DNA from: Rhyzopertha dominica
Taxonomy: Eukaryota > Arthropoda > Insecta > Coleoptera > Bostrichidae
Assembly (NCBI GenBank): GCA_025024175.1
Contig: QCXZ01000064.1
Span: 53,031,325-53,095,324, forward strand
Length of the DNA stretch: 64,000 nt
Direction of reading: 5' to 3'
A program made the translations under genes and the position numbers. Below the pieces are notes generated by a model, which saw only the letters and a list, made by a program, of their open reading frames with translations, did no database searches and had not been told where the DNA came from. This document shows positions 17,763 through 58,134 of this stretch, piece after piece; the stretch's first letter is position 1; each line of letters opens with the position of its first letter.

Positions 17763-18017
17763 AAATGCATGTCTATGCTGTGCTGTCTACACCTCAACCA
17801 ACTGCAGATAGATCTATTTCGCTGTCATTACAGTTCATCAGTACAGTTTAGGTCTAGTGTAGACAGCACGGCATAGAACTGGTTTTGCTTACATACCAAA
17901 GCAATGGTATGATGTAAGCAAGAATTTAGGAAGTAGTACCCGTTAAGGCAGCTAAGTGGCTTTGTCATCATGTCAGTGTAATACTGACAGATGACATTGC
18001 CATCCTAAATTCTTACT
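17763..18017 (-). mobile_element. hammerhead-bearing retroposon, copy A (full length)
   Basis: This 255-bp element, read on the minus strand, starts AGTAAGAATTTAGG and ends GACATGCATTTTA. It has two structured halves. The first is a ~19-bp imperfect hairpin (17958-18001) built on GTCATC/GATGAC and GTCAGT/ACTGAC, lying inside an AAGAATTTAGGA/TCCTAAATTCTT pairing. The second is a hammerhead ribozyme domain closed by a 13-bp GTGCTGTCTACAC-type stem. A further hairpin, ATACCA/TGGTAT, lies between them. There is no ORF and no obvious tRNA-type A/B box. Homologous copies lie at 29369, 31062, 46142 and 57904. It is best explained as a retrozyme-like non-autonomous retroposon. Confidence 0.85.
17800..17848 (-). 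ncRNA. type I hammerhead ribozyme, copy A (slightly decayed)
   Basis: On the minus strand the order is: stem I strand AACUGUA, core CUGAUGA, stem II ACUGU/ACAGC with loop AAUG, core GAAA, short stem III AUA/UAU with loop GAUC, cleavage triplet AUC, then stem I strand UGCAGUU. Stem I keeps six Watson-Crick pairs and one G-U pair. The first stem II pair is A.C instead of the conserved G-C, which should weaken activity. Cleavage would fall between plus-strand positions 17806 and 17807. All invariant core residues are present. Confidence 0.85.
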
Positions 18018-18032
18018 TAATGATTAAGATTA

Positions 18033-18750
18033 TTTAATATCTACCTGTAAATGTAAAAAAGGTGGTGTGGCCTTGCGAAGCGCATTCCGTTTTTGATAAA
18101 AAAAGATATCGAAAATGGTAGTTTTACACTGAGAAAATCCTTTTAGGAAATTTTTGGTTTGGTCAGTAAGAGTTCAAGTTAAACCATGTGTACTCCTACG
18201 TTATATATTTAATGTGCTTGCTGGTGAATCTGATTGGTGGAAAGGTTTGGAATGAAATGATTATGAAATTAATCACTAACGAATATTAGGTTTTATGACG
18301 TTGTAAGTCTAAACATTTGAATTCGCATTTTATTCATTTTTTTGTACTAGGATTGATAAAACTCACCTAACCTTGTTTTTAATATTTTAAAAATGTACTG
18401 GCCAATGACGAATGCTTATACCCACTACGTATGTTCTCGCTTACTTGGTTTCATATTTTGTAACTAGCTAATACACAACCTTTACTTACAGTAATTGGTC
18501 AGACTCAAATACTGTGTGTTTCATAAGTCCTGGCCCCGGTGGTGGGCATACACTACACGCGACCACTTTAAATAATTGGCATATGCCCATATCTTATCAA
18601 TTAAAAGTTATATCAAAACACAACTCCTTTGATGAGTTAATGTCGTATTGAAACAAAATTAAATACTAAAATACTTTTAAAATTGTGTTTTTTCAATAAA
18701 CTGGCCATGTTTAAAATAAATAAACTGTCGCTGATTTAGCCAAGGAGTTG
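18033..18750. other. no recognised feature
   Basis: This is AT-rich DNA between the hammerhead repeat and the truncated start of the non-LTR element. No ORF or repeat is recognised. Confidence 0.4.
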
Positions 18751-18754
18751 GCTA

Positions 18755-20621
18755 ATGCTTAATTTGTCAATAGCAAAAGATGAAATAAGTAATATCAATG
18801 GAAAGAATAAGAATAACTCATTCACAAAGACAGTAACAAACTATGAGAAACTAATTGATTTAATAAAACAGAAAACGTGGCAAGAAGTTTTGAATGAAAC
18901 AGATCCACAAGTAGCAACTGATGTATTCCTAAATAATTTAAGTCAAGTAATGAAATCAGCAAACAAAACCTTAATAAGACATAAAAACTATAAAAAAATA
19001 AAAGCATGGATCACAACAGGCATCATAACGTCAATAAAGAACCGAGAAAAAATGAAAAAAAAAAACTTATAAAAAACCCACACAACCCCGAAAAAGAAAA
19101 AGAATATAAAAATTACAGAAATCAATTAAGGACTCTAATTAATACAGTTAAAAATACCTATTATAAAGAAGCATTCGATAACAACAGAAAAAACATTAAA
19201 AATACTTATAAACTAATTAATGAAGCAACTAATGGAAAACAGAATAGTAGCACTCACGAAAAAATAACTATAATTGACGACAATAACGACCCAATTACAG
19301 ACGAAAGAAAACTAGCAACATTCTGCAATGAATATTATATCAACATTGGTGCAAAAATGACAGAAAAAATTAAGAATAACACAAATCATATTAACTTCAA
19401 CTCTTTAACCAATAACTCAATATTCCTAACTCCAGTAACTACAAACGAGTTAATAAAACATATCCATAGCTTGAAGAACAAGTGCAGTGCAGGCATTGAC
19501 CAGATTCAGTCAAAAACAATTAAAATAATTCATACACATATTATTGCACCTCTGAAACATATAATAAATTTGACTTTCACTAAGGGTATAATTCCAGTAC
19601 AATTTAAACAATCTGTTGTTACACCAATTCACAAATCTGGAAATAAAAATGACATCAGTAACTACAGACCAATAAGTGTGATCACCAATTTTGCAAAAGT
19701 TTTTGAAAAATGTCTAAAAATTCGCCTGGAAAGTTTTTTCAAAGTTAACAAGATACTATCAGAGAATCAATTTGGATTTACGGAGGGAAGAAGCACAAAT
19801 GAGGCCATACAGAAATTAACAGAAGAAATTACAAATCATCTAGACACTGGACAAAAAAGTATCGCAGTCTTCCTAGACTTAGCTAAAGCATTTGATACTG
19901 TGTCGCATACCACTCTATTGAAAATACTATTTAAATACGAAATCAGGGGCCCTGCACATAATATTATAAAAAATTATTTAGAAAACAGAGAACAGTATGT
20001 AAAGATAAATAAAACAATAAGTGATCCATCAACAGTAAGAGTGGGAGTACCACAAGGAACAGTCCTAAGGCCAATACTTTTCAATATATACATAAATGAA
20101 TTAACAAACTTACCACTGAATGGAAGAATAATATCGTATGCTGATGACACTGCAATTGTCTTCCACGGAAAAAACTGGAGTGAAGTTAGGGAAATAACAG
20201 AAACCGAACTCAACAAAATCCAACAAATATTAGACGAACTCAAATTAACCTTAAATGTAAAAAAAACTACCTACTTAGCATTGTCTATTTCCGAAATAAA
20301 CAGACCGTGCTTTAAAGCTCTGAAAATAGGCAGTAGCACAGACCATATTAAGGCGTATGCTCATATATACACAAACAGCAACATAAATATAACACCATAA
20401 AACATAAGTACAATACAAGAGATAAAAATAAAAATAATTCGATCATTCCGCAGAGCAACCGCAACATAAAGCTAAAGTCAATAACATACTTAGGACCAAA
20501 CTTTTATAACATGATTGCCACCCAAATAAGACAAATAAATGATCAGAAAAAGTTTTCTAAAATTATGAATGACTTTGTAACTAGAAATAATGACCACTTC
20601 AAAGAAATATTTAACACTTGA
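18755..20621 (+). pseudogene. non-LTR reverse transcriptase, frameshifted with internal deletion
   Basis: The first segment (18755-19072, 105 aa) is the linker region ending in KAWITTGIITSIKNREKM. A frameshift in an A-run near 19050-19065 moves the frame to 19006-20400 (464 codons). That segment carries RT motifs YRPISV (~220-225), FLDLAKAFD (~289-297, catalytic Asp 291), GVPQG (347-351) and YADD (378-381), so the RT core itself looks intact. Just after the thumb (about residue 455) the frame runs into HKYNTRD..., the far C-terminal end of such proteins (20401-20621). The usual ~200-250 residues between them are missing, which fits an internal deletion near 20380-20410. It is not functional as a full retrotransposon. 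Confidence 0.9.
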
Positions 20622-20981
20622 TCCATCCGTGAACCATTTAATATAATTATATAAACATTGTGCAATACAGATAGGTACAAATATACAAGTAGCTCCTCTT
20701 CTTCACTTTTGTTATGTCATTATAGTATATGCTGGTATGTAAGTAGTAGTATAATTAGCATTTAGTATTTAGATAACTTAGACTAAGTAAAAATCAATAG
20801 AAAATAAAACTTATAATTTAACATGTCATGTCTTGCACTGTACGCACAGGTAACAGTACCTAGGTGCAATGCAACACATTGCATACATTTTTTATAGGTA
20901 TATAACTTTAATTTAATGTACTTTGTATTATTTTTGATGATTGAAAATAATAAAATTGAATTGAATTGAAAAAAAAATTGT
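18755..20981 (+). mobile_element. Jockey/CR1-type non-LTR retrotransposon, 5'-truncated and internally deleted
   Basis: The element begins inside the endonuclease-RT linker of ORF2, so the 5' UTR, ORF1 and endonuclease are lost. It continues through RT, a fused C-terminal domain and an AT-rich 3' UTR, and ends in TTGAATTGAATTGAA followed by an A run (20958-20981). A short microsatellite-like tail of this kind is typical of CR1/L2/Jockey-group elements. Base composition is extremely A-rich on the coding strand. No clear target duplication was found. Confidence 0.85.
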
Positions 20982-21167
20982 ATCGTATTCTAAAAGGTGC
21001 CAAAACAAAATCAATAAAACGACTAGAACTAGAACGTAATAAAGCCAAATATTTACAAAGGAAAAAATAACAGAAATAAAAATCAGAAACAAGGGATCTT
21101 TTAAGACAAAAACAAGGCCCGATAAAACACTGTATACTTCCTTTCCCGCGCGGGATCACTCCGCCAT

Positions 21168-21330
21168 ACCGTCATAATTTTTGCAAACTATAGACACCAT
21201 CCATTTCATTTTCATCGTTTTCAGAAGATGACGAATCACTGTTTGAACTATCCGAGTTGTCACTATTACTACCCAAAGGGATTATAATCTTGTCAACTTG
21301 CTCCTCGATTAAACCATCAGTTTTCCAACA
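21168..21330 (-). pseudogene. possible coding remnant with acidic Ser/Asp/Glu tail
   Basis: On the minus strand an open stretch of about 53 codons reads GDECWKTDGL, then a hydrophobic segment, then a low-complexity run of Ser, Asp, Asn and Glu, ending at a stop. Acidic tails of this type occur at the ends of some insect transposases, but I cannot name the family. An in-frame stop lies just upstream. It lies about 190 bp beyond the non-LTR 3' end. Confidence 0.3.
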
Positions 21331-23554
21331 TTCGTCTCCAACTTAGATAACATGGCGTACAAAAAACCTCCCAATTGTAAAGAGAAATTTGGTCAAGTGC
21401 TCGATGCGTTAGAGAAATTAAATTTCTTAAATTTCCGGCATTATTTTCACGAAAAAATCATTCAAATAAAATAGAAAAAACTATTGTTTCATATTATTTT
21501 TATTTTTAACGCGTTCCAAATCAATGTTCCCTCCTGTTATTAGAAACTAACGCACAATGAAAGATTGCAGTGGCCCACCCCAAGTTTGTATCACGTCGTC
21601 GCCTCTTTCCCGGCCGATATGCAATATTTATTCGGAAAAATTAGTTCGGATCATCATTTGGCTATCCGTTACTAGTCTGTCCACAGGTTCAGGCGCTGGG
21701 CTCCGTTAACATTCTGAACTGCATTACATTCCAAGTCAGGCCCAGGACTTAAGAAACGCACAGTAATCACATACTGTTACATTAATTATGTGAAGTAACC
21801 CTTTAAAGACTTATATATTTATATTTATTTCTTACGCGGGTAACTTATGTATACACTTATGTGACCCTCGTGTGGTTGCCTAAGTTCATGTTCTGACCTG
21901 CGAGCATTATCGATTGCTAGAATGTTCTCGAAGCAAAATTTTCAATTGGGAAATGTACAGATTGTTGAAACACACGAGAGATGGTCTGATTTGAAAGACA
22001 GTGAAGCAAGCGAAATGCAAGAGAATAAATGCAAGCCATGTGTTTTATGCAAAAATTAGTGCAGTATAGGGTTTTGAATAGTGGTTTACTAAATTTGTAG
22101 TGTTGTAATAGCAGCGTTTTCAACTAGTTATCTTGAATTTAACGTATTTCGGTCCTGGGTTATGAATAAAGGAATTCCTAAATTCTCAATATTTTGGGCA
22201 CAATTGTGAAGAATAAAATCCTCAAAGGTTAGGCAGAAAACCATAGTTGACAGTTGACAGTTGAAATGTATTGTATTTTTGCACGAATCCCTTAAATAGC
22301 TCTAACGTCAGTAAAAATAATCTTGGCATAGTTTTGGTCATGATAGAAGGTGGAAATAAAAAATTGGTACAATACCTTTTATCATAGCTCTAAACAAATA
22401 TTCAGACATTTTTGTCCGTATTTATGAAAATTCTAAATTATCATGTAAGACACGTAAGAAATGCATGTATTTGCCGTCTAAGATATTACCCAGCTGGTGG
22501 CAAATAATAATACTGTTCATATCCGTCCAAATTTTACAAAAGACTTGTTCGCTGATTGATTTTAATATGGAGAGTGGAAGAAGATGCCGTTTCCTCCTAC
22601 AGCATATACAAGCTAAATAATGGACCGCACGACCTAACGCAGATGGAGTTCTAGAACTCTACAATTCAGTGGTGGAAAGCAAGTGAAATCGTTTCAAATA
22701 AACGTTATGAGAAACTAAGTGTGTAATAGGATTATAGCTCTTTCCACAACTAAAAAAGTAACTTTACCGCGATCGGCTCGAATTGACGTACCTGCAGCAG
22801 TAATCTTATGGATTAATAATTCATTTGTAGCTTGAGATATTTCACTATAGAGAAAACTTTACAAGCACGCTTAAAGTTAAAAAGAGTAAGGTCTGGTAAC
22901 CTGAGTGGTCAGGAAACAGAACTTCTACTTCCAGTTTTCTTGTTAGCAGAGTTATTATTGGGATACCTTTTGATGTTCCTATTAATATGTGGACCTAACT
23001 GAAACCACTTGTTTATTCGTTTCTTCCAGTAGTGTTGGCAATTTGTTTGGTATAATTTGTAGATAATTGACAGACTGTAAACAATCCTCAAATACGAATT
23101 GCCCAATAAGTTCATGATTGATAATATCACACTAAATATTCGCGCACAAAACGATGTTCAAGAATGACTAATGTAGTTTCAAGAAGATTGTCAAGCGTCC
23201 ATGAATGTGAATTTTCGGTTCATGTACTAAAAGTGACTTTAACGATAAGTAAATACGATTTAGCCACAAAATTTAACACAAGCTCCGTGAAGGATTTCAG
23301 GTTATAGAGATTGGGCAGACTGGATGTGGTATGAGTGCATTTTAAGCTAGGTATGTGTCGAGTCCCGACAAACCCTGATACATATACCTTTACATACCTT
23401 TACACCTCCATTATATTATTATGGTAACACAGCATGCGTGTAGTTGTAACGATACATTTTATCAAAATCTGATGAAAACAGGTTGTTTATGCGCATAAAC
23501 TGTATATTTATAATTTCCTGGCCAGTCTGGATAGATAGGTTTTACCTTCATTTT
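21331..23554. other. no recognised feature
   Basis: This is AT-rich DNA with short chance ORFs and no repeat partner in the window. Confidence 0.4.
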
Positions 23555-23874
23555 CTAAAAATTTTTTGTGCCGCCTTTTGGTAACTGCTGCCAAGCTACA
23601 ATATGGACGGCGATAGTACTGAAGGTTGCAGATCAACGTCACACCACAGCTCCGAAATGTGAGCCTTCTGCAACCTTAAAGTAGATTATCCTACAAAATA
23701 CTACAGAATATGTTGAAAATACACACTCCCGGCGTTTTCTCATACTAAAACATAACAAATAATTCAAAAATCGACAGATTACTTGTATACGTCACTTTAC
23801 TGAGAGGCGGCAAATTGATTTAATCGATAATTTCCATAAGCGCCCTGGATCCGTGATTCATTTATAGAAACCCT
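23555..23874. mobile_element. MITE copy 2 (truncated), family of 10603-10959
   Basis: This is an inverted-orientation match to the MITE at 10603-10959, ending at 23874 with the reverse complement of AGGGTTTCTATAAATGA. The opposite end is missing; similarity begins near TTTTTGTGCCG at about 23562. Similarity is high but with many substitutions (roughly 85%), so the copy is old. Confidence 0.85.
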
Positions 23875-25008
23875 AAACAATTTTAAGGAGCTGTTGCTGC
23901 GTTAGTAAGAAAATTCTAATATACACAATTTAGGTCAAATTGACCAAAATTGGTCGCTAGAACTTATGGTTTTATTTCTCCCGTTGAGTCGCGGTACATC
24001 CTGCATAAAGACGCACCTGTAAGTACGATGTTCCGCACAGAAATCATTTCGACGCTTGAAGTGCACAATGGTATCTCAAAACGTTATGAGCATAACATTT
24101 CGCTTAGTTGTAGCAAATAGAAGGAGACCAGAAATGACTTTACGACGAAGATACGGAGGCGAATATAAAACGACAATTTATAGGTTGAGTATGATAATTT
24201 CGCCGAGTAAGGGCACACTTAAACGTGAAATATAATTAAACTGTACGTTATTCGGTAAAATTTTAGATGTAGATATAAAATTTCATTTCCCTTGGAAAGC
24301 CATTTGCACCCATACAAAGCGCGAAACAAAGAAATAAATGAGTGAATTTTACATCCTCGCCTTTCATATTTCTTAGTTTATAACGGCGCTACGTGACTTT
24401 TAGTGGCTTTTTGATACCTACCGTGCACATTTGTTTATTGCAGTGTAACTGACGCTCACCCGAGCCGCTCGTATTTACATTTTCAATTTAGCCACCTGCC
24501 GGAAAAATGGGGCAATTCGCCTCTTCCACACTCGGCGGCGTCGCCATATAAGCCGCTGGGTTAATGCTTCGAGGCAACGGTGCATCCTGACACTGCCGTT
24601 TTAAGCGTTTGGAATGCAAACAAAGTAGCATAATCTTTGTTTCAGAGTGAGCCGCTAAGCTGCGCCTTAAATTACCCTAGTAGCAGTTTAATTAATACCA
24701 CCAGGATTCTTGAATGCAACAGATAATGGCGCTTATATAACGAGCAGTATAGCTGTATGCAAATGAGTTGCCGCTCAATTTGATGAACTTCCTAGATATT
24801 CCCAATGGGACACACCGCACTTTGTATATGTGTACTATTCGCTGGACGCACCAACATTTCAACGATCTACGTAATTCTAACTTTTCTGGCAACGTCTCCT
24901 TCTTACCTGAGCAGCTGACGCCTGCGTAAAGATAAGCGTGGTTAACAGGCGTAAACAGGACTTTCTTTCTTACCGTTCTTTAAGGAAAAGATCTATTTTT
25001 AGTAAAAA
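23875..25008. other. no recognised feature
   Basis: The block 24440-24660 is relatively GC-rich (GGCGGCGTCGCC) but has no supported ORF. It could be conserved non-coding DNA. Confidence 0.35.
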
Positions 25009-25822
25009 AAAACCGTTGCAAATTGAATCAATACTTCCACATCCAATTGTCTAAATGATATTTGCGTTTTTATTTCCTATACTATACGATTAGTAATCAG
25101 GTTATAAGCATTTTTTCTCTCTACACATTTTTTCTACGACAAACAGTCCTCGTGATATTAGCAAAAATATATAAATTTTGAAATCGTTTTTTTCCAAATA
25201 ACTCGAAAATTATTAACTTAATAAAGAAATTACAAGAGTGCTTTCTGGCCAGAAATTTGATTTTCTATATAATAACAAAATTTCAAAAAAATCGTACGAC
25301 AATGGTCCAAAATAGGTTTTTTGGAAATATTTCGAAAATGTCAAAATTTTGGATAAATTTTCTAAGACACTTGTTGTGAGAAATTTTATTTCCTATCTGA
25401 TGGTATTTTCGTTTTTTAATATATATTAAATATATTCGGAGATATTTACGAAAACCCGTTTTCTTTAAGTGACGCTTTTTTGCTAATATATTCTAAACAG
25501 TTTGCTGCAGCGAAAATTTATAAGAACGAATAACACTCGCAGATACACTACTAATCACATCCTAAAACAAAAAAAAAAACAAAAAATAAAAATTTGCAAA
25601 AAGGGTAGTTTCCCCCCTATTTCACCCCCTTCCAGATACCCTACGTACTCCACAAACAATAGGTCGCTTTGGGTAGTTGAGATTTATACGTTTGCCAAAT
25701 TTGAAGTTCATATATTAAGTCTTTCGAAAGTTATCGTGTTCACAAACAAAACCAGACACACAGACAAGAAATCTTTTTCGCTATACAATACTTCCCATCT
25801 GTTAGATGTGGAAGTAAAATGA
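25009..25822 (-). repeat. dispersed ~0.8-kb repeat, copy 2
   Basis: This is an inverted full-length match to 5726-6604. It is 65 bp shorter because it lacks a small segment near the start that copy 1 contains. The termini agree with copy 1 to within a few bases, which defines the family boundaries. The terminal near-palindrome ACTTCCACATC/GATGGGAAGT is clearer here than in copy 1. Confidence 0.8.
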
Positions 25823-27890: not shown

Positions 27891-27899
27891 GTCTTATTG

Positions 27900-28450: not shown

Positions 28451-28950
28451 AATTGTAAATTAATGCTAATTGTCAATAAACTGTGTTTTACATTACTAGG
28501 CTCAGCCGAAAGAGAACAACCCTTGTACAATGATTTTCATTATCCTAGCTTTGTATACGTATTACTTTGTATAGTATGAGTACTGATCTTCTTTTTCAAA
28601 AATATTTATCACAGTGCAATACCGTTATGCTTTTATGTTTGGCACAATAATTAATTATATACCTTTCTAAACTCCAACCATAAGTTACTATTAGGGTTCA
28701 TGATTTCTCGAGCTTTTCAATTTCTCGGGTCTCGAGAATTCTGGAGGCTTCTCGGTTTGACGAGAAATTTACATTTACGTACGCTTTCTCATATTACTTG
28801 GTTCCAATACCGTCAACAAATTCAGTGGTTTTCCTCTCAAATAAAAGTATCGAATTAATTATAAAACTTTTATTGATTATATTCAAAAACATTAATCTTA
28901 TGAATAAGCTAATTAACTTTTTTTAAATACAGAAATAATATTATTCAAAC

Positions 28951-29245: not shown

Positions 29246-29368
29246 TACGGCATGTATATTATAATAAAAACAAATGAATACTTTGCAAGATCAATGGAAC
29301 ATCTCACGCTGAGGAGCTGAACATACAGACAGGCAGATACATAACAATTAGGTCAGCTTACTCTGTCT

Positions 29369-29524
29369 TACATCATACCATTGCTTTGGTATATAAGCAA
29401 AACCAGTTCTATGCCGTGCTGTCTACACTAGACTTAAACTGCACTGATGAGCTGTAATGACAGCGAAATAGATCTGTCTGCAGTTGGTTGAGGTGTAGAC
29501 AGCACAGCATAGATATGCATTTTA
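29369..29524 (+). mobile_element. hammerhead-bearing retroposon, copy B (5'-truncated, nested in hAT)
   Basis: This copy keeps the ATACCA/TGGTAT hairpin, the hammerhead domain and the conserved 3' end GATATGCATTTTA, but lacks the first hairpin domain. The closing stem GTGCTGTCTACAC (29417-29429) pairs with GTGTAGACAGCAC (29493-29505). It interrupts the hAT transposase remnant immediately after SDKAINA, so it inserted after the hAT did. No clear target duplication is visible, and some flank may have been lost. Confidence 0.85.
29437..29485 (+). ncRNA. type I hammerhead ribozyme, copy B (all core residues intact)
   Basis: The order is: stem I strand AACUGCA (29437-29443), CUGAUGA (29444-29450), stem II GCUGU/ACAGC (29451-29455 and 29460-29464) with loop AAUG, GAAA (29465-29468), stem III AUA/UGU with loop GAUC, the canonical GUC triplet ending at 29478, and stem I strand UGCAGUU (29479-29485). 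Stem I is seven perfect pairs and stem II five perfect pairs. Every invariant hammerhead residue is present. The short stem III is like that of invertebrate PLE and retrozyme hammerheads, which often cleave best as dimers or with loop contacts. Confidence 0.92.
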
Positions 29525-29529
29525 AGCAT

Positions 29530-29853: not shown

Positions 29854-29953
29854 ACGGCGATATAATTCCTATATAGGTAGAATAGGTACATGATTTCTCG
29901 AGTTCTCGGCTTTTCTCGAGCTTGATTTCCCGGGAATGAACCCTAGTTACTAT

Positions 29954-31061: not shown

Positions 31062-31144
31062 TTCTATGCCGTGCTGTCTGCGCTAGACCTAGTCTGCACT
31101 GACGAGCTATAATGGTAGCGAAATAGATCTATCTGCAGTTGGTT
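31062..31144 (+). mobile_element. hammerhead-bearing retroposon, copy C (truncated both ends)
   Basis: This copy contains TTCTATGCCGTGCTGTCTG, the hammerhead domain and stops at GTTGGTT, so both the first hairpin domain and the 3' end are missing. AT-rich DNA on both sides prevents a clear call on target duplication. Confidence 0.8.
31092..31140 (+). ncRNA. type I hammerhead ribozyme, copy C (compensatory stem II change)
   Basis: The core CUGACGA (31099-31105) keeps CUGANGA, since position 7 is free to vary. Stem II is GCUAU/GUAGC with loop AAUG: the fourth pair is A-U where copy B has G-C, and the fifth is a U-G wobble where copy B has U-A. GAAA lies at 31120-31123, stem III is AUA/UAU with loop GAUC, and the AUC triplet ends at 31133. 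Stem I has five inner pairs (CUGCA/UGCAG), then a mismatch. The double change in one stem pair is evidence that the helix is real. Confidence 0.87.
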
Positions 31145-33569: not shown

Positions 33570-33573
33570 AATT

Positions 33574-37494: not shown

Positions 37495-37496
37495 TA

Positions 37497-38828
37497 CGAG
37501 GCATGTTTTTTAAGTAAGTACCGTTTTGCGATTCCACCGCCGCAGCGCTACGGTCGGCGTTCCGCGCATGCGCGCTGGTTACCTACATCTCTTGTCTACG
37601 CACTGACGCCATTACAGTTTGATTCTTCATTGTATACGTTGTTTACTGAGTGTTTAAGATGCCTCCGACAATCGTGAGTCCCGCCGATTATGAAGTACGG
37701 GCTGTTAAACGATTTCTTAGTGCTAAAGGCGTAAAACCGATCGATATTCATCGCGAGATCTGTGAAGTTTACGGACAAAACATTATGAGTGATGGAATGG
37801 TAAGGAAATGGGTGAGAGCATTTAAAGATGGCCGCACAAATGTGCATGATGAAGAACGGAGTGGGCGTCCTCCGGCCATTAATGAAGATTTGGTGCAGAA
37901 AGTGAACGAAAAGGTGAGAGAAAACAGACGCTTTACAATTTCATCATTGTGCGACTGCTTTCCTCAATATTCTCATAATGTTTTGTATCGCATTGTGACC
38001 GAGAACTTGAATTACCGGAAATTGTGTTCACGTTGGGTTCCGAAAATGTTGACGGATTTGCACAAAACCCAATGTTTAGGCAGTGCATTGACTTTCCTTG
38101 AGCGGTACCACAATGAAGGTGAAGATTTTTTAGACCAAATTGTTACTGGTGACGAAACATGGGTAGCCTACGTCACACCAGAATCGAAACAACAATCCAT
38201 GGAATGGCGACATTCATCATCACCCAAAAAAGTAAAGTTTAAGCAAACAATTTCTGCCCGGAAAATCATGTGCACAGTTTTTTGGGACAGAAAAGGAGTA
38301 TTGCTAGTGGAGTTTCTGCCTCGTAATGAGACAATTTATGCAGCGTCTTATTGTAAAACATTGGACAATCTGCGTCGTGCAATCCAGAACAAAAGACGTA
38401 GCAAGTTGAGTAAGGGTATCGTTTTGCTGCATGACAATGTCCGTCCACATGTGGCTAATCGGACCAAAGATCTCATTAAATCTTTTAAATGGGAAACTCT
38501 AGATCATCCTCCATACAGCCCTGATCTGGCGCCCAGCGACTACCATTTGTTCCTGAACTTGAAGAAACACCCGGGTGGTCAGCGTCTTCAAGACGATAAC
38601 GAAGTCGAAACATTTGTGATACAGTGGTTAACAAGTCAGGCGGCAGAATTTTATGAGGAGGGTATTAAAAAACTGGTGCCACGTTATGACAAGTGCCTCA
38701 ATATTCACGGAAATTATGTAGAAAAGTAGATTAAGGTACAGGCTTTCATGTAAGATAAAATTATTGCGATATCTTTGCACGTCTTTTTTTAATTCCAGAA
38801 CGGTACTTACTTAAAAAAACATGCCTCG
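37497..38828 (+). mobile_element. complete mariner transposon
   Basis: The 1332-bp element has ~28-bp inverted ends beginning CGAGGCATGTTTTTTAAGTA (the right copy has one extra T in the T-run) and is flanked by the TA target duplication at 37495-37496 and 38829-38830. The TIRs, a 162-bp 5' leader, an uninterrupted transposase ORF and a ~100-bp 3' trailer are all in place, which is the structure of an autonomous mariner. The near-identical TIRs and intact ORF imply a recent arrival compared with the other elements in the window. Confidence 0.95.
37659..38729 (+). CDS. mariner transposase (D,D34D), intact
   Basis: The 356-aa product is a cut-and-paste transposase that binds the TIRs and inserts at TA. 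I chose the ATG at 37659 (MPPTIVSP); the frame is open a few codons further upstream, but only from a GTG. The first ~115 residues form the paired helix-turn-helix DNA-binding region (RHVEW-like start, then SDGMVRKWVRAFKDGR and EERSGRP linker). WVPKML (126-131) is the mariner linker motif. The catalytic triad is D165 (VTGDETW), D259 (LLHDN) and D294 (SPDLAPSD), with exactly 34 residues between the second and third. Length and motif order are normal and there is no stop or frameshift, so it could be active. One oddity is HDNVRPH, where HDNARPH is usual. Confidence 0.97.
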   Translation: MPPTIVSPADYEVRAVKRFLSAKGVKPIDIHREICEVYGQNIMSDGMVRKWVRAFKDGRTNVHDEERSGRPPAINEDLVQKVNEKVRENRRFTISSLCDCFPQYSHNVLYRIVTENLNYRKLCSRWVPKMLTDLHKTQCLGSALTFLERYHNEGEDFLDQIVTGDETWVAYVTPESKQQSMEWRHSSSPKKVKFKQTISARKIMCTVFWDRKGVLLVEFLPRNETIYAASYCKTLDNLRRAIQNKRRSKLSKGIVLLHDNVRPHVANRTKDLIKSFKWETLDHPPYSPDLAPSDYHLFLNLKKHPGGQRLQDDNEVETFVIQWLTSQAAEFYEEGIKKLVPRYDKCLNIHGNYVEK

Positions 38829-38830
38829 TA

Positions 38831-40375: not shown

Positions 40376-40984
40376 ATGATTTTGTAAAATAAAGCAATAA
40401 TGCGCCTATTATTCCTTTTGCTGCACTGACTAGCTAATATGACCAAAATATTTAGAACCCGGTCGTGCTACTAGCACAATATGCTACTCCATTATAGATG
40501 TAGTTCTCTTCTTGTTGGTTTTTTCACTGAGGGTTCGTGCATGCAATGCACTTGTATTTTTATATTCTGTATCCTTCAGTCTACCTCGTGATCTTTTCCT
40601 TTGTCTTCTTACTTTGCTTCGACCCATTGTTTTGCATACATCTTCATGTGTTACTATGCGAATATCCTTAAGCGCCGCACTTGCTATAATAGCAACTGAT
40701 CAGAAATTCCAGTACGATCGCAAGCTTGAGCTAGACTTGGTAACCTTGGGCGCACTTGGGTAATATCCGTAAAAGTTGACTTTTGTACAGCAGACTCCTT
40801 TTTCTGACAATATCCATCATCTTCCAAATCATCTTTTTCTGCGAAATTCGCATTAGTATTTATTAAATCACCTGGCTTTGGATTAGAGGTTGTAAACTGG
40901 ATTTTTGCATTATAGTCTTTAGAAGCCTGAAAAAACTGTGTAGTCACAAAATGTCAATCACCTATTTACAGCAAAAGTAGGGAA

Positions 40985-45860: not shown

Positions 45861-46141
45861 GGCTGTACATTTTTAAGGGTGTCTGAGAACAATTACTTAC
45901 AAAAAACACAAGTTTACTGGCTAGGCTGGCTACTTTTGTCACTTCAACACTCGATAATAGTTTGCTGGTTAACTTATCGATACGATGATCGTCTTTATCG
46001 ATTAATACCAGAAGTTTTGCACCTCGAACAAAGGAACAAATTTGAAGATTCTGCGTTCCAATAATATTTACCTATATAATAGCCAGCAAAATTTGTCTCA
46101 GTACACAACAGTTTAATGCTGAGAAGGAACAGTATATACAT

Positions 46142-46229
46142 AAACTGCACTGATCAGCTATAATGACAGCGAAATAGATCTATCTGCAGCTGGTTGCGTT
46201 GCGGACAGCACAGCTTAGGCATGCATTTT
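46142..46229 (+). mobile_element. hammerhead-bearing retroposon, copy D (5'-truncated, ribozyme dead)
   Basis: The 88-bp copy starts at the stem I strand of the hammerhead and ends in the conserved GGCATGCATTTTA. It is flanked by an 11-bp direct repeat with one mismatch, AGTATATACAT (46131-46141) and AGTATATAAAT (46230-46240). Truncation at the 5' end with an intact 3' end and target duplication is the pattern left by target-primed reverse transcription. The core reads CUGAUCA (46150-46156): the essential G8 is replaced by C, and stem II has an A.C mismatch, so self-cleavage is not expected. GAAA (46171-46174) and the AUC triplet remain. Confidence 0.85.
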
Positions 46230-46240
46230 AGTATATAAAT

Positions 46241-49200
46241 ATTTAAATCATTCAAGTACAGCAACACAATGGATTTACAGTCGAGTGTATACTTATGTAA
46301 TACAGACAATACAGCCTAACATGCAACACTAGGGCGCTGTAACAGGTTAATTTTGAAAAATTGTTGTTATTTAAACTGTATCGGGATATAGGTCATTGCT
46401 CTCTAACAGCTGGTAGCTCTTCGTGTAAAACACGTCCGTTTCTTCTGGTTGACGAATTCAAGGTGTAGTCTTATCATCTAGATGTTTTCTTCTGGCGCTG
46501 GAAAGTTCGAGAAAAATCTTCCGCAAGGCATTCTGTTTCCGTTGTCGGAATAATTCAAGTCATTTGACGGATCTGTGCCATAATTAAGCCACTAGTTTTC
46601 TGTAAATTTTTGGTTGCAATAAATTATAGTGTAGTTGTTTATTGAACCGAGCCATTGAGGGATTTCGTAGAAGCAGTGAGCTTGAAATTTCACCGTTTCC
46701 TCAGCTATAAACAGAGCTGAATTTCTTATCACCTCGTCAGGCCGTTCTACACCTAAAGGTATGCTTTCAGATATGCTCAGTTCCCAGGCTAATGTTCGGT
46801 TTCTCATAATTTTAGGCCTTTTTACGTACTTGTCATCGAAATTCTTGTGGTGTTGCTCTTGAGTCCTGGTTGCGTAAAAACAAGCCATCAGGCTCCCGTA
46901 TCGAGGTCCTTCCAGAATCGAGTTGACCTTTGATCTTCGTATCTACCCCATCGTTCTTAGAGGGTTGGACTACCATCCACCTACCCACCACCAAGGTCTA
47001 GGGGGTACCAGGCTTATATAACTCGCCGTTAAGTCGACCTGGATTTTTACAGTGGTGGAGACGTCATTCTACACCCGCCGTGGAGTAGCCCATCACAAAA
47101 ACAGATAAAAATTTCACATAATATTATCTTGTTTATCTTTATTTCATTACCATACGATTTCGAAAAGATCGTAGCGGTTTATGTTCGCTATTAACTTTGA
47201 CTGTAATAATTTACACTTGAATTTACTTAACTATTACTTAGCGTGTTTTTATCGCGTTACTCCTATTTGTTCATATTTGTTACGATCTACGAAAAATTCA
47301 TGGGTAACCCTGCTAGTATTACGTGAAGCCTAAAATTGAAATGTAATTTCTCTTTAGAAATAATTTGTAAGCCGAGTATAGCTATACCAGGTACAGTCAG
47401 AAAGTTTCGATAACTACTATTATTTTTATTCAGTTAAAAGTTACTGTTTACTTGCGTTTATATTGCTAAGTTTATACGAACGTAAATTATACCAATTGTT
47501 AAAGGGAGCAGTGAGTTTTATTTTGTTTCTTACTTATTAAGAAGTCATCTTTCCCGTTTTTGTTGTTGTGATAAATCGGTTGCTTAAGATTTAGTTGCAA
47601 AACGGGTGGCGCCTTTCAGTAAGATTCGCGGGTTTAGGAGATTTATCCACCCCCTCTACGCTGTGCTGGTGGGTACTGTTTAGTAGCCGTAACTTTGGTG
47701 AGATAGTTTCCACTGCCACCCTCTATAATTTTCTCTACTTTCTTAATTTACGGTTTTGTGCGCGACGTAAGGGTAATCCTCTAGAAGTCACGTCACAGCG
47801 CATCACTGAGAAGATCCCAGTAGGTCGACTGACTCCATAATAATAACAGTGAAATGCCTGTTACACAAAAAAAACACTGGGGAAGGACTCGTGGGAAAAG
47901 ACTGCATTATCTAATGAACGTGTTATGGTTACTGACAAGGAAGAACACAGGCTATATGCACAGTTCCTAATCGTGAGGGGTACAGATGCTGATTTCCTTA
48001 CAGCGTCAGCAATGTTGCATTAAATTTTCTAGCATTTATGTTGCGAAACTAGATATATTTCGAGAAACCAACTTCACAACAATGATGTTAATAGAAACTT
48101 GCTGTAAAATATGTTTTGGAGATTCCGATTATGTGTAGTAGTAATATAAGGGATGAGACTTGCTTCCTTTTCGGTTAAAAGCAGAAAGCCTGAAACAGAA
48201 ACTAATTCGCTCGAATGTACAAACACAGCCTAAATTACTTAAATCCTGCTCAGGTAATTCTCGCAGTGATGTGCCCCATTCATCTACCTCATCTCGGAAC
48301 GCGCATAAATCTAGATGTTCGCGTTTTTTCCCGGGAACTGGCTGTTCCGCCAACAATATGGGGCCATAAACAGGATCCAGCATAACTGTGGTACATGATG
48401 AAGTGTGCATTATAATGAAGTATTGTGCACAAGTGGGAGGCTTACTCTGCGCGCCAGTTAAATTAAACTGTGTTAATTTTCTTCTCCCGTGGTTTTCCAT
48501 TAAAATTTGCGCACGGCTTATCTCTAATATCTCTTGCGTTGTTTTTTAAATGCGCTCAGCGCTTAACGCTCATTTCCGACCAGTGAAAGGCCTCTACGGT
48601 AAAACAACACAAAGCTTTCAATAGTTCAGCGCACTAAACACTGTTGAAACCAACTGACGCACAATTCGCCCAGCAGCACCGCGCTGGAGCATCCTTAAAC
48701 CAAATAAAGTTGCTTTATCCTTTGTTTCGAAGCGGCACAGTTCTAATAATGGAAAAGTTGGATTAGCAGGTTATGAGAAGCCGTTAAACCTTTAATTACT
48801 GGAATTTATGTGACATATATACGTATTTGGAATTAAGTATGAAATGTGAATGTGAATACATACATAAACAAGCATTTTACTGCTTTTTTTCACATACCAT
48901 TATGACTAGGAACGTAAAACCAATAGAAACATCTTAAGTGTTAACTTGCTATTGGTTTCCGATAGATATTGTGAATTCTATTTAATAGTATAGAAACCTA
49001 AAGAACTTCTCTGAATTTGCCTAATGCACAATAACTAATACCAGATCTAATTATTAGTTGGCTATAAGAATACTAAAGTATTTTGCTATTTCTTTTACCC
49101 AACTGTTTTAAACTGCAAAAGGTTTTGTCACTTTGTTGTAAAAATAAGTACAATTGAGTCAATAACTGTACCCTAAAGGTTCTACGCGCATGGTGACACT

Positions 49201-51980: not shown

Positions 51981-52067
51981 CGTACAGGTAGTTTTTTGTG
52001 GAAAATTGTGTTCAAGACAAAAAAATGAGGGTGTGATTTAATTAAATTAAACTTCAGTTCTCTGAGT

Positions 52068-52376
52068 ATGGCGGACAAAGTAAACATTAAGGAAAACGAA
52101 ACGCCCTGTACTTGTATTAAATTTAAATCAAGTNCAACCCAGTTACCAAAAATCGAAAAGGATTTACCAGAAAGTTTGATGCAAATGTTTATGAAAAGAC
52201 TTCATGGTTGCGCGGATGGGAAGAGACAAATGCGTTTTTTTTGTTTTGTTTGTTTGTTGTTTGGTGGCGATGATAACTGGACATTTCTAAGAAATAAAAT
52301 GAAAAGTATTTAAAATAGGAATACTTTTTGTACTACTCAATTAGCGCCCCCCAGATAAAAATGCCACTAGCCGCCA
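52068..52376 (+). pseudogene. hAT transposase N-terminal remnant (TTF-type zinc finger) and TIR
   Basis: An open stretch reads MADKVNIKENE... and then, across a frameshift near 52200-52240, KTSWLRGWEE and FFCFVCLLFGGDDNWT. The CF.CLLFGG...W word is characteristic of the TTF-type zinc finger at the N-terminus of hAT-like transposases. About 60 bp further, the minus strand begins CAGTGGCGGCTAGTGGC (52360-52376), a hAT-type terminus followed by GGGGGGCGC. The order (finger next to an end) fits the 5' end of an element whose remainder is missing or was deleted internally. Confidence 0.7.
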
Positions 52377-52379
52377 CTG

Positions 52380-52989
52380 GTTCCGTCCTACAAATTCTAT
52401 TGCGTATCTTTCGAACAAAGACGTCCACCCGCAAAGATACTCTTGACGAATTGTACATTGTTTATAGGTGTTCTAAAGCCCAAAATGAACAAGAATACTT
52501 TTCGAGTTCTTTAGCTTGTTCTCTCCGCAAAATGGCGGGTGGCTGAGCAGTAATTATATATTATTACATTAAATTAGGTAGGTATACAACCAGTGGTTCA
52601 ACTATCCAAAAAAGCAGCAAGTAGGGAATTTAAGGCTTTAAACTGTAAACAGAAAAACCTCCTCGTCTGTTTTTAAGACCTTCTAAAACCTACGACAGGC
52701 TAATGTAGTTTCACCTGTGCGGAAACTTGATTGAATTAAAATTAACCTTGATATCCAAAAATGCAAACCTAGGCAAAGTTGGATGTTGATTAAAGTGCCA
52801 CCTTGGACATAATTCACTAACTTCAATAGATAAGCAGATCTGCAGCTCTTGGGCATTAAAGAAATACTTGCGGTAACTCGAGCAATTAATTACCCATATC
52901 AAAACTGGGTAGGTCGAAAACAATCGGCCTTGGAGCGTTAACCTGCGGCACGCACCGATTTATTCCCAACCCCAGTCACTTATTTATAA
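52380..52989. other. no recognised feature
   Basis: A short plus ORF at 52328-52546 runs through the hAT terminus and is not a gene. The rest is AT-rich. Confidence 0.4.
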
Positions 52990-52990
52990 T

Positions 52991-54420
52991 ACAGGATATT
53001 TCACGAATGATAATGACCCTGATGAAATTAAAAATGCAACCCAAAATACATTTGCAGAGGTAACATTGATAATTGTTCACCGTGTTAAAAATATAAAACG
53101 TAGAGAGCTGTATAAATTCGTAAATTTTGACATAAAATTCAATCATTTTTAAGCAAATTTGGTATAGTAAAACAAATTTTATTTTTGAAAAATGTTTATT
53201 CAATAATATTAATGTAATAAATGCTCAAAATGTCGCCCTCCGCTGTTTCACAAGCTTGAATTCATGCCCAAAACGATCTTTTAACATGCATTAACATTTC
53301 TAAAGTGATCAATCTACATGCATCACGTATTTTATTTTCCAAATATTCTACACTTTCAATTGGTGTTTAGTGTACTTGTTTTTTTACCATATACCCGACA
53401 GAAAAAAATCCAAAGGAGTAAGGCTCGGGCTTCTCGGTGGCCAATGATTAATTGAACCTCTTCCTATCTATCGATTAGGCAAAACCAAATCAAGACGATT
53501 TCGCACTATTCTATGATAATGCGCAGTTGCCCCATCTTGTTGGAACCATAGATCTAGTCTGACTTGTAAATTTACATTTAGGAGAAGTACCGGTAAAATG
53601 TTTCTTAAAAAATTTAGATAAGTATTGCCGTTTAAAGTGTCACGAAATAAATAAGACCCAACAATTTGATTCTGCAATATTCCGCACCAGACATTCGTCG
53701 AGTAGATAGTTTGAAAATGTCCTTCTCGAATCCAACGTGGATTTTCTTGCGCATAATAATGCATGTTATGTTTGTTAACTCCACCATTATTAGAAAATCT
53801 TGCTTCATCTGAGAAGCAAATGTCATAAAATCTCACATTCAAATTTTGGAGTTCCCGAAAAAAGTTACAAAAAGCCAGTCTTTTAGGATAATCTATCTCC
53901 TTTAAGGCCTGAACCAATTGCAAGTGATACGGATGAAATTGATTGCCTTTAATTATTCGGTGTACTGAAGACAGACTAATACCGGTTGCTCTTGAGACTA
54001 CCCTTTGACTAATATGAGGATTTCCAATACTCTAATGTCATTGTTAGGGCCTATTGATGTTCTTTCTCTTGACTTTTTCAGTGGTGGCCAGTTTGTCCTT
54101 AAAGTTAATTCAAGTCTCTTGAAAATTATATCGGCAGGAGCTCTTCTATTTGGAAAACGTTGTCTGTATAAACGGGCAGCAGCGGAAGCATTTTTCTTGC
54201 ATTCAGCATAAATAATAATCATATCTGTTTTTTTTATTTGTATACATTTTGATTTTTAATAAATACAGTGACAGGAACCATAGCGCTTAGCCGTTATCGA
54301 CTCCCAATTTATTTTTAAAATAATACCATTCTGTAAAATTACCACATTGGCTATGAGAATGTATTTTAGGTTGAATTTTTAATTTCGTCAGGATCATTAA
54401 ATTGTTAAATGCATTTAATT
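52991..54420 (-). mobile_element. DD41D mariner-type element, decayed
   Basis: Inverted repeats of at least ~43 bp flank a dead transposase: 53013-53056 and about 54354-54398, sharing CCTGA.GAAATTAAAAAT.CAAC..AAAATACATT with a few mismatches. The left outer end TACAGGATATTTCACG resembles the CAGGGTGTTTCA ends of insect mariner-like elements. The right outer end is worn (about 54415). Inner similarity continues weakly for another ~25 bp. Confidence 0.8.
53230..54225 (-). pseudogene. DD41D Tc1/mariner transposase with stops and frameshifts
   Basis: Reading the minus strand from 54222, the N-terminal helix-turn-helix (ECKKNASAAARLYRQRFPNR) is followed by a frameshift near 54010. The frame then gives PHISQRVVSRATGISLSSVH and, in the ORF at 53468-53923, FSDEARFS (first Asp) and WFQQDGATAHY (second Asp). 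A TAG replaces Trp in NR.IGRG near 53470. Translation past it gives PPRSPSLTPLDFF with the third Asp, exactly 41 residues after the second. The C-terminal part (to ~53225) has further breaks. The spacing assigns it to DD41D, distinct from the intact D34D mariner at 37659. Confidence 0.88.
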
Positions 54421-54574
54421 TGGCAACTAAAAGCTAAGGCTATGCCACATCAATTTTTTTGCTTTCGCCACATAATACACTAATCGTGATGTTACTTAAA
54501 CCTCTCAGCAGTCGATTTACCTGCTAGTTTGTCTACATTCATAATATGAAGGCCGTAGTGCAACTGAGAAATGA

Positions 54575-56054
54575 CTGTAAAGCAGTGATGGGCGCGTAAA
54601 ATACACCATGTAAATTACTCTATTATCTACGCGTAAACTATGTAATATTATACTTTGAAAGTCTACTGTAGAAAGTAGCATTGTGTAGACAAACACAAAT
54701 CTAGAAATATATAGTGTGTTTTAATTATTGTGCATAATAGCAGTACTACTCAAAACGCCTCAAACGTAATATTAGTTTTTTGTATCTTATTATTATTTTT
54801 ATTATTTGTTAACTAAACAAAATACTACCCTGTTGTAACCAGGTTAACGAGACAAATGCGCAAACAACAATAACTTGTTTAGACATACGTTATTTAAGGC
54901 CGGAAGACCAGACTAAGCAGGACAAACGTGCTGTTAAAAGCACTTTGTAACTTTCCGAATTGTAATTTTATTATTTTTCTTCTCTAGAAATGGAAATACG
55001 CGAGCAATTTCATACGCTGCCCTTGTCTTTTTTAGCTTTTCTAGCGATATTTTTAATCCCAGATCAATTTTATTGTGCTGTGTTAGCAGGATATACACAA
55101 AGCTCTCATTTGTGGACTAGGTACATTGATATAAAGAAGCAAGTAGCAAGTGATAAGTAGTTATAGTACCTAAACATATTTTTTGTATGTGAAATATGCG
55201 CTTCAGAATTTGATAGCATGTAAAAGGTAAGCTTCTTAGGGATACACCTGATATAGTTATGGAAGGAAAGACTTCAAACGCACACGTATGCTTTGTCTTT
55301 TATGTCCCAAAAAGTAAGAAAACCATTTGGATATTATGGTGACCTACTGAAATAGGTTATGCATGTTTGTAATATAGATATTAATACAGTATATAATAAG
55401 TGCATAATGCTTAATGCAATAATAGGCCATATTACACGCGAATTGTTCCAATATTCGAGTGTAATATGGTTCATTATCCACGAAATGAATATTATACTTT
55501 ATCTGCAACTGTATACAGAATGGCCCATTGAAAATGAATAGTATTATTAGAATTTTTTTATAAATGTTGTTTATTGATGAAATTAATAGTAACATTAGGA
55601 TTTGCAATATTAATGGTTACGGTAAAAATATCCTTCATTTGCAATGGGACGCTCTGTATACAGTTGTAGATATAGTAGAGTACCCAATTCGTGTATAATG
55701 GACTATATTACACACGAATCTGATATAATCAGCAAATACCGTGTAATATTCTCTCTAATGTAAAATGGATTGTATTATGTTGCTACAGATACGCACATAA
55801 TAATAGTTGTAGATAAAAATTATTAAATTTAAAATTTCAAGGAATTCAACACAAGGAGAAGCTAACAAGGCAGGGAAGTTAGAAATAAAATACTTTCTGT
55901 TTAGTTTTAGCGTGTACTTAGTATACTTTAGCCATAATATACTCGTCTTATATTTTCTACTCAAAATCTACTCCAAAGTGCTTTATCTGCATGTTCTACT
56001 GGTGTAAGGTAGAAAATTATAATTTAGGCGTAAACGCCCATCACTGCTGTAAAG
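54575..56054. repeat. 8-bp TSD (CTGTAAAG) of non-autonomous hAT
   Basis: CTGTAAAG at 54575-54582 is exactly repeated at 56047-56054, immediately outside the CAGTGATGGGCG termini. Confidence 0.9.
54583..56046. mobile_element. non-autonomous hAT element
   Basis: The 1464-bp element has inverted ends CAGTGATGGGCG (12 bp) and a perfect 8-bp target duplication. The interior is very AT-rich with no transposase. It contains several copies of a word around TATTACAC(G/A)CGAAT or its complement (55427, 55457, 55707, 55740), which may be subterminal-type binding repeats or simple divergence of a short tandem. The exact duplication suggests a relatively young insertion. Confidence 0.88.
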
Positions 56055-57890
56055 ATGTAAAGGCACCTTGCAAAAGCCACGTCGTCCAAGCCTTGAGTCA
56101 TGCAGGCATATTAAAAGGCTATGGCCATCAGTAACAATAAAGCCTAATGCTTTCGCTGTAAAACGACCATTCACGACCAATTTCGTTATACCATCAGCTG
56201 AATAAACATTTCTAGTTGTTTATCCTGTCTTTTTATTTATTTTTCTTTCTTTCCTTCTTGTCTGTAGTATATCCTAAGACTATTTCAAATTCTGCTTGTC
56301 AGTGTTCCCTACCAGCTTATGCATTTTTAACCAGCTCTGGGAATTGCCGTGCTTTGTAACGAGGCGATAATAATAAGCATATCGCAGTTTCAAGAAATTG
56401 CCGGGTTGCAACGTTCTCCGTCTACGCCAAACGACGAGAACTGTAGTTAAGGAACAAATTGCATGGAAGTATGCTGTGCTTATAGGAAAACGCTCGTTGA
56501 GGAACGGCTCAATGGGTCCAAACACGCAATCTCCCAACTTGTTTATTGCGTTAAAAGTCACGGATACGTCGACAGGATGAGTGTGTATTAGACGAAATCA
56601 TACGTTTTATATTTTTCAGCAAGAACTTCAAAGCAAAGCGATTCCCTCGTCAATAGTCGCATAACGTCCAATGATTCCTCAGAATTAGCAGTAAGTCAGA
56701 TAAGTTGACCACAATGATGTGATATCTCGTGCTGTTTTTAATCTCAGTAACATTTTCCTTCCAACATTAGCCTTAACTGAATATAATATTAAATACGGTC
56801 AACAGTGCTGAATACGACTGACTTAAAGCGACGGTACCTTAAATATTTGACAAAGCCTTGCTTTGAAAACATAAATTCTAAATAATGTAAAGCTCCTATA
56901 TTCTGGAGCTTCTCTCATCTCACCGATACCTATCTCCCTCGCACTAGACCCGATGCGTACTCATCTCTCCGATCCGACAAATGTAAACGCGTGCTCTGAT
57001 TGGTTAGAGCGTTCGAGTTATATCTACTAGTAGGTTAAACCTACTGTATATCATGTATTCATCTTCATTCTTTTCATTCCAATTGTTTGATGTTTATCTC
57101 TCTTTAAAATATGCTTGACTGATGAGTACCGTTCTAAAATGTTTTTCAACATAGGTACACACGTAAATACAGGACAAATTAGTTTTCGGGTAGAGCATTG
57201 GCGAAGGTATTGGAAGCTTTGACAAACATTAGAATACGTTACGTTGCATACAATATAATCTATAGAGTTGAAAGCGTTTAGAGGTATGTATGATAACGCT
57301 AGGTCATGTGTAAAATCCAGTATAATTTATACGGGTAATTATTAACTAAAATGTCATAATTATTAACAAATCTTAACTCTTTATTAATACATAAATTATA
57401 TTATAAATTTTATTGATTATAAACTGAACAACAAAAGTATTGAAATGCATTTAAACTTTTTCATTATCATACATTTTTAATAATAAACTTCGCTAAATAT
57501 TATAAATAAACGGGTGTTATATTTATGAATGAAATTTATAAATGCCATATATCGCTAAATTACCATGGGATGTTATAAATAAATTATTTATAAAGATAGA
57601 TCTAAAAAATACTGTATATTGGATTCTTCAGATGACGTAATATTATCATGCTTATGACTAAGAGGTAGCGCACTTATCTCGAGAACCGTTAACTGTATAA
57701 AATATTGCCCAAGATCAAATTTTTATAATACTCTACATCTTCTCTAGTAAACTCCAAATACCTTTTAGAGCCGATGAAACAAGATATTTACAAATTACCC
57801 GATTTTGTGACCTTTGACCTTGAATATCTTGGATCGCGTACATGTATTCTATGAGATTCTTGAGCTGACTTTTAATATCTTAAAATAATG
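56055..57890. other. no gene; part of a distant inverted repeat pair
   Basis: The segment ~56938-57012 (TAGACCCG, then GCTCTGATTGGTTAG) is matched in inverted form at ~58382-58440 (CTAGCCAATCAGAGC, then CGGGTCTA). The pair brackets 1.4 kb that includes hammerhead repeat E and could be worn TIRs of an older element. The rest is AT-rich and unrecognised. GTAGGTTAAACCTAC (57029-57043) is a small perfect palindrome. Confidence 0.35.
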
Positions 57891-57903
57891 GTGCATGCAA
57901 GTT

Positions 57904-58134
57904 AAAATGCATGTCTATGCTGTGCTCTCTGCGTCTCTGCTTATAGCTCATCAATGCAGTTTAGAACTAGTACCGACAGCATGGCCTGCTGTCAAGTTGA
58001 TGTATGCAGGTGCATGCCAACTTGTCAGGCTACAGATCACTTTATTTAGGAAGTATAATCCGTTAAGGCAGCTAGGTGGCTTTGCCATCATGTCAGTGAA
58101 ACGCTGACAAATGGCATTGCCGTCTAAATTTCTA
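57904..58134 (-). mobile_element. hammerhead-bearing retroposon, copy E (near full length, ribozyme deleted)
   Basis: The 231-bp copy is flanked by a 12-bp duplication with one mismatch, TGCATGCAAGTT (57892-57903) and TGTATGCAAGTT (58135-58146). On the minus strand it starts ATAGAAATTTAGACGGC and ends GACATGCATTTTA, agreeing with copy A at both ends. The first hairpin domain is kept with compensatory changes (GCCAT/ATGGC where copy A has GTCAT/ATGAC). The hammerhead has UUGAUGA for CUGAUGA (57948-57954) and a deletion that removes GAAA and stem III, so it is inactive. A separate stretch (57975-58050) differs from copy A. Confidence 0.85.

Follow-up and report, generated by a model that had tools for sequence, protein, structure and literature searches.

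How does an element that bears a ribozyme and codes for no protein enter new sites in its host genome? The question is raised by a stretch of 64,000 nucleotides from the beetle Rhyzopertha dominica (assembly GCA_025024175.1, contig QCXZ01000064.1, positions 53,031,325 to 53,095,324, forward strand), here called the window, in which five short copies (A to E) of a dispersed hammerhead-ribozyme family had been predicted. Judged by its sequence features, the family is a metazoan retrozyme of the kind without long terminal repeats (non-LTR): it has a type I hammerhead motif, a 352-nt unit, a guanine-plus-cytosine (GC) content below 50%, tandem repeats, target-site duplications of more than 4 bp and no protein coding. 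Its inserts also carry the features of Penelope-type insertion, namely an inverted 5′ copy, a target duplication and two start sites. This non-autonomous element was probably inserted by two-sided target-primed reverse transcription of the Penelope-like element (PLE) type.

Inserts with an inverted and a direct part

Searching the host genome (479 Mb, 138 contigs) with copy A yielded the further loci that had been expected; the best 40 of 2039 first-look candidates were scored. With a tandem unit as query, the best 40 of 2162 candidates were scored, and neither total is a copy number. The two samples comprise loci L001 to L060 which, after removal of duplicates L031 and L036, give 58 distinct loci, all chosen as best matches. 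The copy A query favours D1 (defined below) in terminal orientation; the unit query does not require it.

Read in the hammerhead sense, the full unit has the order D2-D3-X-D1, where D3 is the hammerhead domain and D1 is flanked by inverted arms of ~15 nt. Full units 98–100% identical to the query fill the top of the matches listed for the unit search. Tandem units, which had been proposed as a check, are present at L024, L032 and L041. The view of the family as short dispersed copies therefore holds only in part: such copies exist, but the solitary picture is incomplete, as the genome also has 352-nt units in short tandem and head-to-head forms. The longest stop-to-stop frame inside the repeat is 67 aa (tandem loci L032 and L041), so the unit has no open reading frame for reverse transcriptase (RT) or GIY-YIG endonuclease, and we rejected its identity as a PLE.

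In 46 of the 58 loci the insert is a chimera of two opposed segments: V, the reverse complement of the unit, followed by U, which is in the sense orientation and ends after D3 at ATGCATTTT. The other 12 comprise six with U only and six without a recognised D3 end (L008, L010, L013, L025, L028 and L040). V starts at a fixed place, unit positions 195–210 at the D1|D2 border (site tau), in 43 of the 46 chimeras, the exceptions being L027, L046 and L047. The unit-query sample on its own (n=28) gave 19 V+U inserts starting at tau, two starting elsewhere, six with U only and one without clear assignment. At L028 (1298–1746) the host flank of the insert is also inverted on the other side, through a later inversion or an assembly artefact.

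Among scored joints V measured 53–809 nt, and U reached 1002 nt. Segments longer than one unit number 16 of 39 for V and 21 of 45 for U, so their templates were multimeric (uncleaved) or circular; units running in one direction number about three at most per sampled locus. None of 45 U segments starts at the hammerhead cleavage site (304–311), and none of 39 V segments ends there. Copies that appeared to start at this site (303–352 in the match list) were rejected, as their joints vary once flanks are added. L034, which was dropped from the count, is the sole insert whose U starts at 308 (L034 1857), the first base past the predicted cleavage.

Junctions, joints and the proposed route of insertion

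Target duplications flank the inserts far more often than mismatched pairings would give. A score of at least 9 was reached by 24 of 30 first-query loci against 3 of 870 mismatched pairings; for the V+U inserts of both queries, scores of at least 9 and at least 11 were reached by 39 and 35 of 46, compared with 30 and 5 of 2070 mismatched pairings. The median duplication is 13 bp for the 39 V+U inserts scoring at least 9, the 7 of 46 scoring lower being left aside.

The same duplications bear on a further account, in which circular RNA spreads a canonical tandem retrozyme and DNA recombination produces the head-to-head forms afterwards. Tandem units do occur at the three loci named above, and tandem repeats are described for retrozymes in PMC7229834. 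However, the duplications flank the whole chimera, and the joints differ among loci while the V start is constant, so we hold this account to be very improbable.

At the 3′ junction the target matches the unit past TTTT by at least 1, 2 and 3 nt in 35, 25 and 16 of 35 scored inserts (random expectation 0.32, 0.11 and 0.034); 4 of the 39 inserts were omitted from this count, their motif not being found. At the 5′ junction a match to the RNA of at least 1 nt was seen in 20 of 27 scored inserts (random 0.32), with 9 mismatched starts and 3 skipped inserts omitted and with L054 (9 nt), probably an artefact, among the 27 kept.

PLE machinery might also have made V from antisense RNA starting at D1, via template jump or self-priming. 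Antisense templates, self-priming and bidirectional promoters have been proposed for Penelope in Adineta vaga (PMC3846280), the fixed V start might reflect the 5′ end of an RNA, and end joining could also give the 5′ junction match. Against this, the V start varies by ~10 nt and matches the target in the 20 inserts just mentioned, and priming fits somewhat better than run-off. We consider an antisense template unlikely, albeit the most serious rival to a sense one. A simple snap-back of the first cDNA was rejected by reasoning: it gives no X after D3 in the forms with one inverted unit.

V and U overlap at their joint by a median of 4 nt (39 scored) versus 1 nt in simulated joints (139 of 150 in range; Mann–Whitney P=3.6e-4), 7 of the 46 V+U loci being omitted for split alignments. 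The 39 scored joints have 29 distinct U-start positions.

A putative route would run as follows. The target, AT-rich DNA, would receive a staggered cut, with a multimeric or circular sense RNA serving as template. On this RNA the bottom strand would prime at a site beta just past D3 (UUUU|AAUG), and the top strand would prime on same-sense RNA at tau. Synthesis from each site would run for varying distances, after which the two cDNAs would be joined via short microhomology, often at the D1 inverted arms. In the RNA of L024, the locus folded, the D3-end site sits in the loop of a 9-bp hairpin (z-score −4.9).

The lone TTTT at the 3′ ends of copies B and E had suggested an RNA polymerase III (Pol III) terminator. 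The idea was dropped, as many templates run on into X; it is also disfavoured by 3′ junctions that match AAT beyond TTTT, though that may be a cutting preference.

Penelope-like elements of the same genome

A fragment of the candidate driver class lies in the window:

14343..14783, plus strand: PLE fragment, C-terminal part with a GIY-YIG-like motif

The fragment has no Pfam match of its own, and one of three relatives tested matches GIY-YIG. Its best named matches are from a weevil, a cockroach and another beetle, with a lizard lower down; the window also has a frame of a long interspersed nuclear element (LINE), which beetle proteins match best. In a genome search with the PLE protein the best 150 of 5997 first-look candidates were scored. 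Pairs within 5 kb, judged by eye among the matches listed, were head-to-head in 9 cases, tail-to-tail in none and same-strand in at least one.

Four PLE insertions fetched by place (L081 to L084) form the basis of the scar comparison. L081, L082 and L083 are head-to-head insertions with target duplications of 16, 13 and 14 bp; L084, 474 bp long, is built alike and its duplication measures 18 bp. In L081 to L083 the start of the left, inverted copy falls no more than 3 nt from GGTTTGAAGG and the end of the right copy no more than 2 nt from AACATGTC; in all four insertions a tail of ~30 nt makes the inverted side the longer. This family has, by sequence order, a minimal hammerhead (CTGAGGA, a paired stem II, GAAACGTC; stem I ~3 bp by eye). 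From the predicted cleavage to the AACATGTC end the distance is 46 nt in the 7 occurrences listed, of which 3 lie in direct copies ending there, and the direct copy of L083 does not fit this pattern; in the retrozyme the predicted cleavage lies 45 nt from the D3 end. Copies of a second PLE family, that of the window, seem by eye to end ~50 or ~89 nt past the predicted cleavage. Given that ~45 nt separate the hammerhead from the first start downstream of it, in the PLE as in the retrozyme, the PLE protein may use the ribozyme domain as a recognition handle.

LINEs offer another route, since twin priming yields inverted 5′ parts. A short interspersed nuclear element (SINE) mobilised by LINEs, its inverted parts coming from ordinary twin priming, would suit the duplications of mostly 11–16 bp and the 5′ truncation, which are LINE-like, and LINEs are abundant in the genome. 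Yet the inverted start is fixed in 43 of 46 inserts, the 3′ ends inspected have no poly(A) tail, and a LINE search gave no head-to-head pair among the 92 matches listed. Top scores for internal Pol III A and B boxes in copies A, B and E were not above those of random stretches, so the SINE identity itself was rejected on this test. We regard LINE mobilisation as quite improbable.

Biochemistry provides a precedent for PLE-type insertion. In vitro the PLE PAc cleaves and extends both strands from internal starts, with a tail between the two start sites; it also cuts at ATT, with a cut site at +26 and its commonest start 111–118 into the open reading frame (PMC11167929). The inserts studied here resemble PLEs, as described in PMC3846280 and PMC11167929, in the inverted 5′ copy, the palindrome at the inverted joint, the target duplications, the tail between two start sites and the hammerhead upstream of a start. 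They differ in having neither an RT or endonuclease frame nor sequence similarity to the PLE loci compared, in fuller hammerhead stems and in a ~200-nt tail.

Metazoan non-LTR retrozymes are described by Cervera and de la Pena 2020 (PMC7229834) as tandem units of ~170–400 bp with GC below 50% and, where duplications are present, ones of more than 4 bp; the present family is like them in its hammerhead, unit size, GC, duplications, self-paired RNA and the presence of PLEs in the genome. It is unlike them in that the loci sampled here are mostly head-to-head chimeras with few units one way; the word ‘inverted’ does not occur in the main text of that paper. According to a 2020 review (PMC7761336), animal retrozyme repeats have no conserved motif revealing a partner, the likely candidates being PLEs and Terminons; PMC7229834 regards PLEs as a strong candidate for moving retrozymes, and PMC7229834, PMC7761336 and PMC8969392 all suggest that retrozymes may be clients of PLEs. 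Among open-access titles and abstracts, supplements aside, we found no report of inverted–direct retrozyme inserts.

Several observations weigh against the PLE-type reading. D1 and D3 are part of both queries, which favour long young copies, and in the window V+U inserts are limited to copies A and E of the five, B and D consisting of U alone and C being undecided. At the 3′ junction the match stops after AAT, only 8 of 35 inserts having G as the fourth base, and it may fit a cutting preference for ATT as well as pairing between primer and RNA. The joint TCCTAAA recurs in six inserts and TTTAGGA in two, possibly by inheritance; with the eight set aside, the median overlap falls to 3 (by hand). 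The PLE end region has no predicted stem-loop (z-score 0.34), unlike the retrozyme at its one folded locus, and the retrozyme tail (X+D1) would be ~200 nt compared with ~30 nt in the PLE. PAc start sites are alike for top and bottom strands whereas the two retrozyme ends differ, and PAc starts are not homologous to the cut DNA (PMC11167929). Finally, the unit has no sequence similarity to 23 PLE loci apart from L075 and L080, with apparent retrozyme copies, and L074, which matches over 33 nt. The copy in L075 (1273–1397) has an intact hammerhead and is nested in a locus that was found via the PLE protein.

Read directly from the inserts are two preferred ends, the opposed orientation of V and U, the target duplications, joint microhomology, templates of more than one unit and the same scar in four PLE insertions. 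For a PLE protein acting in trans, sense RNA as template for both strands, hammerhead cleavage and circle formation, we infer a part in the process. We lean, with some reserve, towards the wider proposition that PLE RT inserts animal retrozymes, priming both strands at two internal sites of one multimeric or circular hammerhead RNA. The novelty lies in the combined evidence for a retrozyme bearing the PLE scar. With that scar shared, and the spacing from hammerhead to end nearly equal, in one genome, the question of the driver becomes directly testable, and the retrozyme inserts supply natural footprints for the two-strand extension known in vitro.

Window copies, the hammerhead domain and other repeats

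Direct reading and blastn of the 64-kb window located all five predicted copies, each with all or part of the type I hammerhead domain:

17762..18017, minus strand: copy A, V segment (D1, orientation A, ~18017–17925) and U segment (D2+D3), with the ATGCATTTT end at 17762
17931–17925, minus strand: copy A joint, TCCTAAA, where the V segment meets the U segment (D2+D3)
18018..18032, no strand assigned: 5′ target-site duplication of copy A, TAATCTTAATCATTA; 3′ copy at 17748–17762, its first T common to the element end
29362..29524, plus strand: copy B, D2+D3, 5′ truncated, U only
29444–29450 (core), predicted cleavage after 29478, plus strand: hammerhead of copy B, complete
31062..31144, plus strand: copy C, D3 cut at both ends, core intact, weak duplication
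46142..46229, plus strand: copy D, 5′-truncated D3, U only, changed core
46131–46142 and 46230–46241, plus strand: duplication of copy D, 12 bp with 1 mismatch
57904..58134, minus strand: copy E, V (D1 and ~60 nt of reverse-complemented X) and D3 with a broken hammerhead
~57985–57983, minus strand: copy E joint, GCC, by eye, where V (D1 and part of X) meets D3
58146–58135 and 57903–57892, minus strand: duplication of copy E, 12 bp with 1 mismatch

The common 3′ terminus that had been proposed is seen in A, B, D and E, which all end in ATGCATTTT; C stops within D3. A and B are 96% identical across 159 nt, and A and E start with D1, a further structured domain, so the element is longer than the hammerhead alone. 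None of the five is tandem. The duplication of A is perfect over 15 bp and was equalled by none of 3000 control pairings; pairings as good numbered 9 for D and 21 for E (12 bp with 1 mismatch each) and 28 for the weak 9-bp duplication of C, each out of 3000. For B no duplication was found, 2055 of 3000 control pairings being as good.

The order of hammerhead elements and stems is as described in the original prediction, although a strict motif scan passed B and C only (two matches in the window, none across 100 dinucleotide shuffles); a looser scan additionally accepted A. Copy A has an A·C mismatch at the stem II base, the core of D is altered to CTGATCA, and E combines an altered core with an internal deletion; the hammerhead of all three should be weakened or lost as a result. 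Copy B has a stem II of 5 bp, a stem III of 3 bp with a tetraloop, a proximal stem I of 7 bp and a distal stem of 13+7 bp; C keeps the core, but its distal stem is missing the 3′ strand. Rfam gave no match at the gathering score, the top hammerhead model being HH9 (25.8 bits against a cut-off of 52). At 40421–40443 of the window there is a weak relic-like match to the hammerhead region, which the covariance model misses at E up to 10.

The predicted minimum-energy fold of copy B (−53.5 kcal/mol) differs from its hammerhead fold (−45.4 kcal/mol), tertiary contacts being uncounted. Copy A is predicted to be 73% paired and folds at −108 kcal/mol (z-score −9.8; its D1 folded alone, −9.7). The fold of E is weaker (z-score −2.9), and that of C alone is not more stable than those of shuffles. 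A second ribozyme in D1 was considered and rejected, as Rfam matches to copies A and E at E≤1 were limited to weak HH9 and mir-214 on A. Two exact patterns searched in viral contigs gave no matches.

Conservation of the core above background had been named as decisive. Compensatory changes in the five window copies are not above shuffles (84 of 500 as high), but the expectation holds in a larger alignment of 68 of 86 D3 copies (65 of 83 distinct genome copies together with B, C and D). Here standard pairs make up 97.7% of pair cells and both-side changes number 29 cells against 7.3 in shuffles, with none of 500 as high, a figure that is no probability, the D3 copies being related. Of these changes 17 are a single A-U to U-A swap in the tetraloop and 12 lie in stems I and II. 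Two of five covariation measures were not extreme in the same alignment (double-change pairs, 58 of 500; pair types, 45 of 500). The hammerhead pattern is retained in 35 of 49 D3 copies in the first 30 loci. Together with the target duplications, the GC of 0.41–0.44 in copies A, B and E and the fold of A, these data bear out the idea of a non-autonomous, ribozyme-bearing retroposon.

Covariation also speaks against a palindromic DNA transposon or foldback element. Large inverted repeats are present where the insert has one whole inverted unit, but left and right ends are unlike, duplication length is variable and 5′ truncation occurs. We find a foldback origin scarcely credible.

In 63 of the 68 copies stem III and its loop are a perfect 10-nt palindrome, in two versions, ATAGATCTAT or ATAGTACTAT. 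Hammerheads with such a stem III could work as dimers, as is described for amphibian ones. The likeness is to the satellite hammerheads of newt and axolotl, where a palindromic tetraloop caps helix III (PMC7229834); unlike in those, stem III here is 3 bp and the whole 10-mer is palindromic.

The window holds other repeats. A palindromic element at 12212–13741 has a long inverted repeat with arms of ~250 nt each, in two blocks, 90% complementary. Another dispersed family is represented by a ~700-bp repeat at 5906–6604 and 25010–25714, in opposite orientations with blocks 86–92% similar. A mariner-type transposase is encoded at 37650–38729 by an uninterrupted frame of 359 aa (Pfam Transposase_1, HTH_48). 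An array of ~76-bp and related units lies at 59610–60018, and a 75-nt perfect inverted repeat stands between two (AT)n runs at 61098–61494.

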